DNA of 64,000 nucleotides. Source: Noviherbaspirillum sp. Root189 (GTDB lineage: Bacteria > Pseudomonadota > Gammaproteobacteria > Burkholderiales > Burkholderiaceae_D). The stretch covers positions 1 through 64,000 of the forward strand of contig NZ_LMHZ01000056.1 of assembly GCF_001428545.1 (NCBI RefSeq), written 5' to 3'. Under the pieces are notes generated by a model. It was not told where the DNA came from, did no database searches, and saw nothing but the letters and a program-made list of their open reading frames with translations. A program made the position numbers and the translations under genes. This document shows, piece by piece, positions 36,553-62,239 of this stretch (positions within the stretch are counted from its first letter, which is position 1; each line of letters opens with the position of its first letter).

Positions 36553-37548
36553 ATGAACGAAAACAACTACGAACAAAACAGGGCGTCCACACCGTCTAAC
36601 CCGGGACGCAATGAAGGTTGGGAGCGTGATGTGCTCGAAAGGCTTGCCTTTGCAACACTAGCGGAGCAACGCGCACGTCGGCGCTGGAATATCTTCTTCC
36701 GCTTTCTGACATTGGCTGTCATTGCCGTCGGCATCTGGATGGCGTTCGGAATGACCAACAACGAAGATGAAATCGTTGGTCCGCACACTGCATTGATCGA
36801 GATCGACGGCACCATCGAGGCCGGCACGTCGGGGGCCGCCGATGCCGTCATTCCGGCGCTCAATCGCGCCTATACGGACGATACAGCCGTCGGCGTCGTA
36901 TTGCGCATCAATAGCCCGGGCGGTAGTCCTGTGCAGGCCGGGATGATCAATGACGAGATCACCCGACTGCGGAAGGCCTATCCGAAGAAGCCTTTGTATG
37001 TGGTGGTTGACGAGATCTGCGCTTCGGGCGGCTATTACATCGCTGCGGCAGCGGACAAGATATTTGTCAACAAGGCGAGTATCGTCGGATCGATTGGTGT
37101 GCTGATGGAAGGCTTCGGTTTTACCGGACTAATGGACAAGGTCGGCGTTGAGCGTCGCCTGATGACTGCCGGCGAGAACAAGGGCTTCATGGACCCTTTT
37201 AGCCCTCAATCGGCTCAGCAAAAAGGTTATGCACAGGATATGTTGAACGAGGTGCATCAACAGTTCATCGACGTGGTGAGGCAGGGCCGGGGCAAGCGCC
37301 TGAAGGAAACGCCGGAAACCTTTTCGGGGCTGTTCTGGAGTGGGTCGAAAGCGGTTGAAATCGGCCTTGCAGATGGCTATGGCACCGTCGACACGGTTGC
37401 GCGTGACGAACTCAAGGCTGAAGATATCATCGACTACACGCAGCACGAAGGGCTATCTGAGCGCCTTCTGAAGAAGTTCGGTGGGGCGGTCGGTACCGCA
37501 GCGATGGCAAGTCTGCAGAGCAGGCTCGAGAAGCCGTCTTTGCGGTAA
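36553..37548 (+). CDS. sppA: S49-family signal peptide peptidase
   Basis: A 331-residue membrane-anchored peptidase with one helix (residues about 46-67: NIFFRFLTLAVIAVGIWMAF). The Ser/Lys dyad is readable: Ser158 in CASGGYY and Lys210 52 residues later, the same spacing as in Bacillus SppA (Ser147/Lys199); ASIVGSIGVL is another family motif. It cuts leftover signal peptides in the membrane. It is the short, single-domain type (about 330 residues), not the 618-residue E. coli type. Last gene of the rluC-HAD-Rieske-sppA run, followed by the candidate sRNA and a hairpin. Confidence 0.93.
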   Translation: MNENNYEQNRASTPSNPGRNEGWERDVLERLAFATLAEQRARRRWNIFFRFLTLAVIAVGIWMAFGMTNNEDEIVGPHTALIEIDGTIEAGTSGAADAVIPALNRAYTDDTAVGVVLRINSPGGSPVQAGMINDEITRLRKAYPKKPLYVVVDEICASGGYYIAAAADKIFVNKASIVGSIGVLMEGFGFTGLMDKVGVERRLMTAGENKGFMDPFSPQSAQQKGYAQDMLNEVHQQFIDVVRQGRGKRLKETPETFSGLFWSGSKAVEIGLADGYGTVDTVARDELKAEDIIDYTQHEGLSERLLKKFGGAVGTAAMASLQSRLEKPSLR

Positions 37549-37658: not shown

Positions 37659-37686
37659 TTGAATCTTCAGAATGGGGCTTTATACT
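37659..37686 (+). promoter_or_regulatory. Sigma70 promoter of the candidate sRNA
   Basis: TTGAAT (37659-37664), a 16-bp spacer and TATACT (37681-37686). It is better than most promoters in this window and points into the gap rather than to a protein gene, with a start expected near 37693. Confidence 0.6.
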
Positions 37687-37692
37687 GCACTT

Positions 37693-37860
37693 GTCCGGCA
37701 TCAGTTTCGATCCTTACAGCATAAGAATATGCAATCGGGAAAAACTCGTGATCCGGGCATAAAGCGCCACGTCTCGGACGCGGCTTTGAGAGGCTTAGGC
37801 TTACTCATAAACTGCCCAAGGGGCATGCAAAACGGCGGCGCAATACCGCCGTTTTGCGCG
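37693..37860 (+). ncRNA. Candidate small RNA of about 165-170 nt
   Basis: Downstream of the sigma70 promoter the sequence can fold into several local stems: GCATA-AGAA-TATGC (about 37720-37733), AAAGC...GCTTT enclosing CGTC-TCG-GACG, TGCCC-AAG-GGGCA, and the last, GCAAAACGGCGG/CCGCCGTTTTGC (37827-37857). Boundaries come from the expected start and the terminal stem. It lacks the GAGGAAAGTCCGGGC core of RNase P RNA, and no long closing stem typical of 6S RNA is evident. Function and family unknown; expression not shown. Confidence 0.45.
37827..37857. terminator. Bidirectional-type terminator between convergent genes
   Basis: GCAAAACGGCGG (37827-37838) pairs perfectly with CCGCCGTTTTGC (37846-37857) around a 7-nt loop. 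The A-run and T-run lie inside the stem, so it can stop transcripts of both strands, though no separate T-tract follows it. Confidence 0.7.
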
Positions 37861-37890: not shown

Positions 37891-38643
37891 TCAGACGGCC
37901 AGAAGCAGGAATACAGTCGGCTTCTTGTGAAAATCGGGCATTGTCCCGGCAGCCAGTTCCGCTTTCCATTTCGTCGCTGTCTGAGTCCTGATCGATTCCG
38001 ACGGCAGGCTCAGATCAGTTGCCACACTTACCAGAGTAGAAGGGCTGCAGCTTGCAACGATCGCTTCCAGCAGCGCGCTATTGCGGTAAGGCGTCTCGAT
38101 AAAGAGTTGCGTTTGCTTTTCACTACGGGAACGCTCTTCCAATGTCTTGAGCCTTTTCATGCGCTGTCCGGCATCGGTAGGGAGGTAGCCGTTGAATGCA
38201 AAGCTCTGGCCATTCAAGCCGCTTGCCATCACTGCCAATAACAGCGACGAAGGACCGACCAGCGGACGGACCGTGATGCCTTTGGCATGAGCAAGCCTGA
38301 CTAGGTTTGCGCCCGGGTCTGCGACAGCTGGCACGCCGGCTTCCGAGATAAGTCCTGCGTTTCTGCCGGCCAGCAATGGTTCCAGTAAAGCGGGAAGTGC
38401 ATCGGCAGGCGTATTGATGTTCAGTTCACTGATCTGGATTTCTTGCAGCGGACGTGACAATGGAAGGGTCTGTCCCACCAACTTGAGATAGGCGCGAGTG
38501 GTTTTTGCGTTTTCGGCTATGAAGTAGTCCAGGCGCGAGGTGATCGCCTTGACATCCGGTGGTATGACAAAGGCTAGTGGATCCAGGCCTGCGCCGTCAG
38601 CAGGGCCCAGGGTATTGGGGACTAGATAAAGAATGCCGGCCAT
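37891..38643 (-). CDS. SAM-dependent methyltransferase, RsmI-like (TP_methylase family)
   Basis: About 250 residues of the tetrapyrrole-methylase fold used by RsmI. MAGILYLVPNTLG starts the family; GLISEAGVPAVADPGANLV and GPSSLLLAVMASGLNGQSFAFNGYLP are the SAM-site and active-site regions. It is close to RsmI (16S rRNA C1402 2'-O-methyltransferase) but shorter and without the typical C-terminal extension, so it is best seen as a paralogue rather than RsmI itself. The start at 38643 is preferred; a frame reaching 38769 would overlap the maf gene. It sits 22 bp after maf and is convergent with sppA. Confidence 0.85.
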   Translation of the reverse strand: MAGILYLVPNTLGPADGAGLDPLAFVIPPDVKAITSRLDYFIAENAKTTRAYLKLVGQTLPLSRPLQEIQISELNINTPADALPALLEPLLAGRNAGLISEAGVPAVADPGANLVRLAHAKGITVRPLVGPSSLLLAVMASGLNGQSFAFNGYLPTDAGQRMKRLKTLEERSRSEKQTQLFIETPYRNSALLEAIVASCSPSTLVSVATDLSLPSESIRTQTATKWKAELAAGTMPDFHKKPTVFLLLAV

Positions 38644-38665
38644 ATATATTTTTATGTTCGAAGGG

Positions 38666-39277
38666 TTATCCGGTGAAAAATGCAATTCCGGCCCGTCGCA
38701 GCATGGAGCAAAGCGCAATGAGGGGGAGGCCGGTGAGGGCGGTGGGATCCGAGCTGTCAATCTTCTCAATCAGCGCAATGCCCAGGCCTTCATTCTTGGC
38801 ACTGCCTGCGCAGTCGTAAGGCTGCTCAATGTGCAAATAGGCGTCGAGTTCATGGTCCGGCAGGTCACGAAAGCGTACAAAGGTCAGTGTATTGGTTACT
38901 TGCGCCGCCTCATCCGGTGGGCGGCGTGAATCCCACAGGCAGAGTGCGGTATGAAAAATGACCTCCCGGCCACGCATCATCTGTAGTTGTTGCAAGGCAT
39001 TCTCATGATTGCCAGGTTTGCCAATTTGCATACCGTCAAGCGTTGCGACCTGATCTGAGCCGATGACCAGGCTATCCGGCCGATCAGATGCGATCTTTGC
39101 GGCCTTTTCCTGGGCCAGCCTTACGGCGGTATGTTCGGGAAGCTCATTGGCTAACGGGCTTTCATCGATGTCCGGTGAAACCGCCTCGAAAGAAAGCCGC
39201 AGGCGCGAGAGCAATTCCTGTCGATAGCGAGAACTTGACGCGAGGATCAAATGAGGAAGAACTAGCCGATCAGTCAT
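38666..39277 (-). CDS. Maf/YceF-family nucleotide pyrophosphatase
   Basis: A 203-residue house-cleaning pyrophosphatase. The start LPHLILASSSRYRQELLSRL carries the S-S-x-R-x2-L motif; SLVIGSDQVATLDGMQIGKP and the late segment YDCAGSAKNEGLGIALIE fit the YceF subgroup, which prefers m7GTP-type nucleotides. It removes modified nucleoside triphosphates and may help division checkpoints. It is divergent from yceD by 106 bp and followed by the RsmI-like gene. Substrate within the family is not certain. Confidence 0.93.
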   Translation of the reverse strand: MTDRLVLPHLILASSSRYRQELLSRLRLSFEAVSPDIDESPLANELPEHTAVRLAQEKAAKIASDRPDSLVIGSDQVATLDGMQIGKPGNHENALQQLQMMRGREVIFHTALCLWDSRRPPDEAAQVTNTLTFVRFRDLPDHELDAYLHIEQPYDCAGSAKNEGLGIALIEKIDSSDPTALTGLPLIALCSMLRRAGIAFFTG

Positions 39278-61812: not shown

Positions 61813-61888
61813 GCGGGAGTAGCTCAGTTGGTAGAGCGCAACCTTGCCAAGGTTGAGGTCGAGAGTTCGAGACTCTTCTCCCGCTCCA
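61813..61888 (+). tRNA. tRNA-Gly (GCC), copy 1
   Basis: 76 nt with CCA encoded. The acceptor arms GCGGGAG/CTCCCGC, the D-loop GCTCAGTTGGTAGAGC, the anticodon loop TTGCCAA (anticodon GCC) and the TTCGAGA T-loop are all in place. It is followed directly by a terminator. Confidence 0.97.
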
Positions 61889-61895
61889 GAATCCG

Positions 61896-61923
61896 AAAGG
61901 AAGCTGACCTAGCTTCCTTTTTT
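61896..61923 (+). terminator. Terminator between the two tRNA-Gly genes
   Basis: AAAGGAAGCT (61896-61905) pairs with AGCTTCCTTT (61911-61920) around GACCT and ends in a T-run (61918-61923). It starts 7 bp after the CCA of copy 1, so the two tRNA genes seem to be separate units. Confidence 0.8.
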
Positions 61924-61979
61924 ATTTCACAGGATTTCGATGTCCCGATTTCCTTAGTGAAGTAAGCCATGCAGCATAT

Positions 61980-62055
61980 GCGGGAATAGCTCAGTTGGTA
62001 GAGCGCAACCTTGCCAAGGTTGAGGTCGAGAGTTCGAGACTCTTTTCCCGCTCCA
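61980..62055 (+). tRNA. tRNA-Gly (GCC), copy 2
   Basis: 76 nt with CCA encoded; nearly identical to copy 1. It differs at the seventh acceptor pair, A-T instead of G-C (GCGGGAA/TTCCCGC), a compensated change that keeps the stem. Anticodon GCC in loop TTGCCAA. No strong promoter is visible between the terminator and this gene. Confidence 0.97.
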
Positions 62056-62165
62056 GTTTTTGAAGAGGACAATTAATTTGTCTTCAGGCGCGACAGACCG
62101 CTTCGATTTCACCGGTCTGATCTAAAAAGCGCCGTTTGAGTTTTGTAGTTAAAATATCACTCCAT

Positions 62166-62239
62166 GGCGGGGTAGCAAAGTGGTTATGCAGCGGCCTGCA
62201 AAGCCGTTTACGCCGGTTCGATCCCGACCCCCGCCTCCA
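62166..62239 (+). tRNA. tRNA-Cys (GCA)
   Basis: 74 nt with CCA encoded. Acceptor arms GGCGGGG/CCCCGCC, anticodon loop CTGCAAA (anticodon GCA), T-loop GGTTCGATCC. The -10-like TAAAAT at 62150-62155 is the only upstream promoter hint. Confidence 0.96.

Follow-up and report, generated by a model that had tools for sequence, protein, structure and literature searches.

The described RNAs closest to the one reported here are the trans-encoded small RNAs (sRNAs) that associate with Hfq or ProQ and, in some respects, 6S RNA (RF00013), whose shape is one long interrupted hairpin. From Herbaspirillum seropedicae, a relative that probably belongs to the same family as our source bacterium, there is a set of sRNAs designated Hsnc001 to Hsnc117 (PMC7011215). 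The opening part of that article names no RNA like ours, and a term search of its main text returned neither sppA nor RsmI, the neighbours of our locus. Abstract openings and the terms searched in the main texts of PMC7011215, PMC6337395 and PMC8632094 likewise yielded no description of it.

The window is a 64,000-nt stretch of the 6.15-Mb genome of Noviherbaspirillum sp. Root189. Within it, the stop codon of sppA and a convergent rsmI-like gene enclose a gap of 342 nt whose plus strand holds no recognisable protein gene; a Pfam search of the open reading frames in the gap (71 aa on the plus strand, 82 aa on the minus strand) gave zero matches. The initial annotation had placed a candidate small RNA gene between sppA and an RsmI-like gene, and both of these neighbours are found where it put them. 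The genes of this region follow one another as rluC, gph, a gene for a Rieske protein, sppA, the RNA, and then the convergent rsmI-like gene and maf. Pfam backs sppA, the rsmI-like gene and maf; the Rieske-like protein has no Pfam match, and we assigned the names rluC, gph and Rieske by reading the sequences. The features of the locus are as follows.

36553–37548, plus strand: sppA (peptidase S49; Pfam PF01343, 128.9 bits), the usual upstream neighbour, outside the RNA.
37659–37686, plus strand: sigma70-type promoter TTGAAT-N16-TATACT (TTGAAT at 37659–37664, TATACT at 37681–37686, spacer of 16 nt).
37693–37859, plus strand: small RNA gene with a predicted transcript of about 165 nt, from fold, covariance model and conservation; start and end are predicted positions.
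37693–37758, plus strand: 5' domain, with closing helix GUCCGG/CCGGGC, inner helices and an apical hairpin, from fold and covariation.
37767–37783, plus strand: hairpin H2, CCACGUC UCG GACGCGG, with one A·C mismatch in the window copy, from covariation.
37787–37807, plus strand: hairpin H3, from fold and covariation.
37813–37825, plus strand: short hairpin H4, UGCCC AAG GGGCA, from fold and covariation.
37827–37857, plus strand: terminal 12-bp hairpin H5, the presumed terminator, from fold, covariation and conservation.
37891–38769, minus strand: RsmI-like methylase gene (PF00590, 27.2 bits, cut-off 27.8), the convergent neighbour, outside the RNA.

Alignments of the RsmI-like protein to its relatives mostly start near residue 43, so the annotated TTG start is probably too early, and the true start of this gene would lie inside the frame 37891–38769.

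The near-consensus sigma70 promoter that had been noticed pointing into the gap is present and matches the consensus at 9 of 12 positions. A promoter scan of 1.5 kb found three such sites against 0.9 expected by chance, which alone is not decisive, and a simple terminator scan of the same length found none where 1.9 would be expected by chance. Chance expectations of this size are what could be said for the proposal that the hairpins and promoter are fortuitous and that only a terminator shared by two convergent genes is real; we find this hardly credible, since it is contradicted by the covariation, the sharp borders and the synteny-blind model matches given below. A terminator shared with rsmI was also rejected as the sole source of the conservation: loci in which no rsmI was detected nearby still have the RNA.

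DNA matching the gap occurs in 21 of 60 genomes, namely the source genome itself, all 14 others of the same genus and six from other genera of the family. At these 21 homologous loci sppA is present in every case and rsmI in 19. A TTG-N-TAT[A/T]NT site with a 16-nt spacer lies in the gap of 21/21, and CTTG and TATANT are unchanged in all 20 copies of the promoter alignment, which omits the locus L017 with its long insertion. Mean pairwise identity among the 15 genus copies (own included) is 0.75 in the promoter, 0.69 in the RNA and 0.96 in H5, against 0.55–0.57 in shuffles. The flanks in these same copies lie at baseline, both in the 60 nt upstream (0.58 versus 0.56) and in the 30 nt downstream (0.57 versus 0.55); over the final 150 nt of sppA, identity is 0.74. 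Conservation that is bounded by promoter and hairpin in this way is, on the evidence of the alignments, the profile of a separate gene.

The RNA had been described as able to fold into several stems over about 165 nt and to end in a perfect 12-bp hairpin. Both statements hold. The stretch 37693–37859 folds into five domains at −70.6 kcal/mol, compared with −48.4 ± 3.9 kcal/mol for 200 dinucleotide shuffles (z = −5.7, with no shuffle as good), and H5, with its perfect 12 bp and 7-nt loop at 37827–37857, reaches −20.3 kcal/mol (z = −5.7) on its own. H2 by itself has a fold z of only −1.45. The window copy scores 159 bits against the covariance model, a value reached by construction since the copy is part of the model.

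We counted covariation on a hand-built structure of 52 pairs, using a model-fitted alignment of 23 copies (A5) and a plain MAFFT alignment of 15 copies (A2); the unfitted alignment was counted as well because fitting leans towards the structure. In A5, 92.1% of cells are paired, and double changes occur in 34 of the 52 pairs versus 16.4 ± 2.5 in shuffles (0/500 as high), with a covariation score of 0.295 versus 0.154 ± 0.007. When the partner is slid by 1–3 columns, at most 17 pairs show double changes and the score is at most 0.094. The signal in A2 is weaker than in A5: double changes in 18 of 52 pairs versus 10.2 ± 2.2, and a score of 0.204 versus 0.161 ± 0.008; one of five measures, further pair types, is not above shuffles in this alignment (99/500). 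Unguided RNAalifold on A2 recovers only 31 pairs, of which 12 show double changes, with H3 and H4 absent. Among the individual helices in A5, pairing reaches 98.4% of cells in the closing helix, with double changes in 6/6 pairs; the corresponding values are 95.7% and 4/7 for H2 and 84.6% and 8/8 for H3. Most copies of the window's clade have GUCYGG/CCGGAC as their closing helix, and a majority of the 18 aligned Janthinobacterium-Massilia-like copies have GUAGUUC/GAACUAC. A lack of conserved promoter and stems in relatives with the sppA/RsmI-like order had been named in advance as grounds for giving up the proposed gene; both are conserved, and the stems covary.

At the 3' end there is only UUUU, placed within the 3' arm of H5, and no separate U-tract follows the hairpin; the earlier caveat on this point was thus correct, in keeping with the empty terminator scan. 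Some other genera have longer U-runs at the 3' end of the RNA. The sequence of H5 is near-invariant within the genus. Elsewhere it can be altered on both sides, as in ACGACGG/CCGUCGU (L103) and ACAGCGG/CCGCUGU (L046). We rejected the idea of a repeated terminator element, because the core pattern of H5 occurs only once in the source genome at up to two mismatches. Scanning the contigs of 84,980 species for this core gave 44 stretches, 40 of them with sppA upstream on the same strand. One further stretch has rsmI adjoining and scores 78.7 bits in the model (L065), and another runs to the end of the fetched piece and scores 65.2 bits (L095); two without sppA, in a Clostridia metagenome-assembled genome (L063) and in Stutzerimonas (L071), are taken as chance occurrences.

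No known family accounts for the RNA. Rfam 15 at the gathering score assigns none to it in the whole window or in nine homologous loci, and relaxing to E ≤ 10 adds only mir-703 and Chloroflexi-1, both on the minus strand and both dismissed as chance. The only matches in the window at the gathering score are three consecutive tRNA genes at 61813–62236. The initial annotation had seen no conserved core of RNase P RNA and, tentatively, none of 6S RNA. Searches of the window with covariance models for RNase P RNA, tmRNA and SRP RNA gave no match to our RNA, nor did RF00013 match it at E ≤ 10; the identification as 6S RNA is further ruled out by the genome's own 6S gene, which lies elsewhere (C6:119233–119413, 72.6 bits). 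From the Rfam result and the literature covered above, we propose that this is probably a new family within a known kind of RNA.

How widely is this RNA distributed? Of 294 family genomes (own included), drawn evenly from a larger group, 149 matched a covariance model (R1) at E ≤ 1e-3, and these represent 23 of 44 genera. The other 145 genomes have no detectable copy by R1, so the RNA is not essential to the family. H5 by itself scores approximately 20–31 bits in the model, and therefore 40 of the weaker R1 matches, spread over many genera, were fetched in two batches of 20 for a check of their surroundings. The RNA lay behind sppA on the same strand in 17/20 of the first batch and 18/20 of the second. 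The model is blind to sppA, and this synteny thus validates it. Two matches of about 30 bits located elsewhere (L114 and L115) are probably chance.

Such constancy behind sppA, in 35 of the 40 weaker matches, could suggest that the RNA belongs to the sppA transcript, as its 3' UTR or as a piece processed from that UTR. We regard this as very improbable. The RNA has its own conserved promoter, the stretch between sppA and that promoter is unconserved, and in three genomes of one genus (L113, L180 and L181, genus g66) the RNA is kept in the rluC-gph-Rieske neighbourhood, behind the Rieske gene, with sppA missing; these genomes encode only a distant, long S49 protein (30–32% identity). With its position unchanged in a genus that has lost this sppA, the RNA must be more than a 3' UTR of sppA and is independent of that gene. 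At L055, L058, L064, L092 and other Janthinobacterium/Massilia loci the fetched piece shows no rsmI, yet the RNA lies behind sppA. Because the RNA persists where rsmI is not found nearby, and also where sppA is gone, adjacency to RsmI is, as far as these loci tell, incidental.

We also examined 22 sppA loci within the family (L127–L148), from genomes chosen mostly for having no or a weak R1 match. By eye, 20 of them have no RNA and two (L139 and L140) have a divergent one. A second model (R2) gave 33.0 bits for L140, 30.9 for L139, 18.5 for L132 (the level of a hairpin) and 10.2 for L137, with no match at E ≤ 1 in the remaining loci of a set that included the second S49 matches L149 and L150. 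Three of these loci (L135–L137, genus g50) we take, as a guess, to be Herbaspirillum-like; in them approximately 83–132 nt separate the stop codon of sppA from the rsmI match, inspection by eye shows just a short hairpin, and the model score is at best 10 bits. At sppA loci of other families (L153–L179) R2 found no match in 27/27 at E ≤ 1; the in-family control L152 was recovered in the same search with 57.7 bits. Out-of-family matches (6 of 11 among 399 genomes of the order, at most 40.4 bits) were rejected, with sppA and rsmI absent from the approximately 3 kb fetched. The RNA family is one found in the source bacterium's own family, Oxalobacteraceae in the record titles.

The 3' half of the RNA (H2–H5) is common to the clades, and the 5' domain is clade-specific. 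In many copies outside Noviherbaspirillum, AAGG(A/G)GG or a near form of it lies mostly 12–23 nt from the predicted start (e.g. L021, L046, L106 and L121). At least six contiguous pairs with the anti-Shine-Dalgarno (anti-SD) sequence, with G·U allowed at A positions, can form within the first 75 nt in 28 of 38 non-redundant copies outside the genus, compared with a mean of 9.6 and a maximum of 15 in 100 shuffles, in a test devised after the tract had been seen and on a set from crude clustering (first 90 nt, ratio under 0.85) whose related copies are not independent. The tract lies at nt 12–23 in 25 of the 28 carriers and further in for three. An AU triplet follows 4–6 nt behind it in 26/28 (AUA in 18, AUU in six, AUC in two, AUG in none) and is lacking in two.

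This arrangement suggests a reading in which a structured RNA with a near-perfect 5' SD tract engages ribosomes, either through an IF3-sensitive, non-AUG start of a very short open reading frame at AUA, AUU or AUC, or as a decoy that titrates the 16S anti-SD or SD-binding sRNAs. The frequency of the tract and the regular spacing of the triplet speak for it, but the evidence across clades makes it improbable in our estimation. In the window's own genus the tract occurs in 2/12 copies versus 1.4 in shuffles, which is not above chance, and AAGGA, where present, is paired with UCCUU in a stem; by eye, the tract is also absent from most of seven copies from genus g47 (L182–L188), which we take to be probably Herminiimonas. 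The triplet is replaced by ACA in L080 and L193 and by AAG in L198, and it sits in a wider conserved GAUAU-like stretch, so its conservation may have a different cause. Copies without the triplet rule out a non-AUG start as a universal feature, and a conserved open reading frame inside the RNA is ruled out by eye, as frames disagree and the encoded peptides are unlike each other. The seven Herminiimonas-like copies have another 5' domain, with the stretch GUGAAUGCAACAACGUCUGCAA in five of them and with one mismatch in a sixth.

That positions 37659–37859 of the plus strand constitute a complete small-RNA gene in Noviherbaspirillum is well supported by these comparisons, and the candidate gene of the initial annotation stands, on its conserved promoter, its covarying stems and the absence of an Rfam family. 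By pattern and conservation the promoter is the RNA's own, and compensatory changes back the structure, as is looked for in bacterial small regulatory RNAs. Going further, we think it likely, with moderate confidence, that the product of this independent gene, a structured non-coding RNA about 165 nt long, is a trans-acting regulatory sRNA of a new family. The supports for this, as read from sequence, are the promoter, the compensated helices, the sharp borders, the single genomic copy and a place in the chromosome that outlives its neighbours.

The housekeeping sigma70 holoenzyme would transcribe the RNA, and the transcript would end at the 12-bp hairpin. The RNA may then act in trans, with the clade-specific, replaceable 5' domain serving for target recognition by base pairing and the common 3' part (H2–H5) serving for stability and as a chaperone platform. 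A ProQ/FinO-type platform is the candidate for that chaperone; such a platform would suit a strong hairpin with a short U-tail, and the source genome encodes a ProQ homologue (79.8 bits).

The main rival to a regulator that acts by base pairing is a structured RNA that binds a protein and sequesters or scaffolds it, in principle like 6S RNA and Csr sponges. Copies from the window's genus are largely paired and consist almost wholly of helix; conserved single-stranded stretches are few, and no long conserved seed is left unpaired apart from the terminal loop. An RNA paired to this extent may suit protein binding no less than base pairing. The near-invariance of H5, where 9 of 12 pairs never vary in the 23-copy alignment, would also fit a protein partner. 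Nevertheless, the 5' domain has been rebuilt between clades, which would be odd for a fixed protein target, H5 does vary on both sides in other genera, 6S RNA is a separate gene here, and by eye there is no repeated GGA-in-loop pattern such as a CsrA sponge needs. We therefore consider the protein-binding alternative unlikely, and retain the trans-acting regulatory sRNA as the preferred reading.

An RNA family without an Rfam match is hereby added to the family that contains Janthinobacterium, Massilia and Noviherbaspirillum, for which we found little sRNA work. Its fixed genomic address, promoter and structure make it usable for annotating many genomes, and a 5' domain that can be replaced beside a common 3' part, together with the SD-like tract of many genera, offers a handle on how the specificity of an sRNA may change while its scaffold is kept.

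Compared with known systems, the RNA behind sppA resembles 6S RNA in its similar length, its own promoter and its high degree of structure, but differs in being a chain of hairpins without an RF00013 match. It stands apart from the familiar trans-encoded, Hfq- or ProQ-associated sRNAs in having no Rfam family and, in the window's clade, only a short U-tail; it is like them in being intergenic, in its sigma70-type promoter, in its length of about 165 nt, in its stem-loops, in its hairpin 3' end and in its restriction to one lineage.
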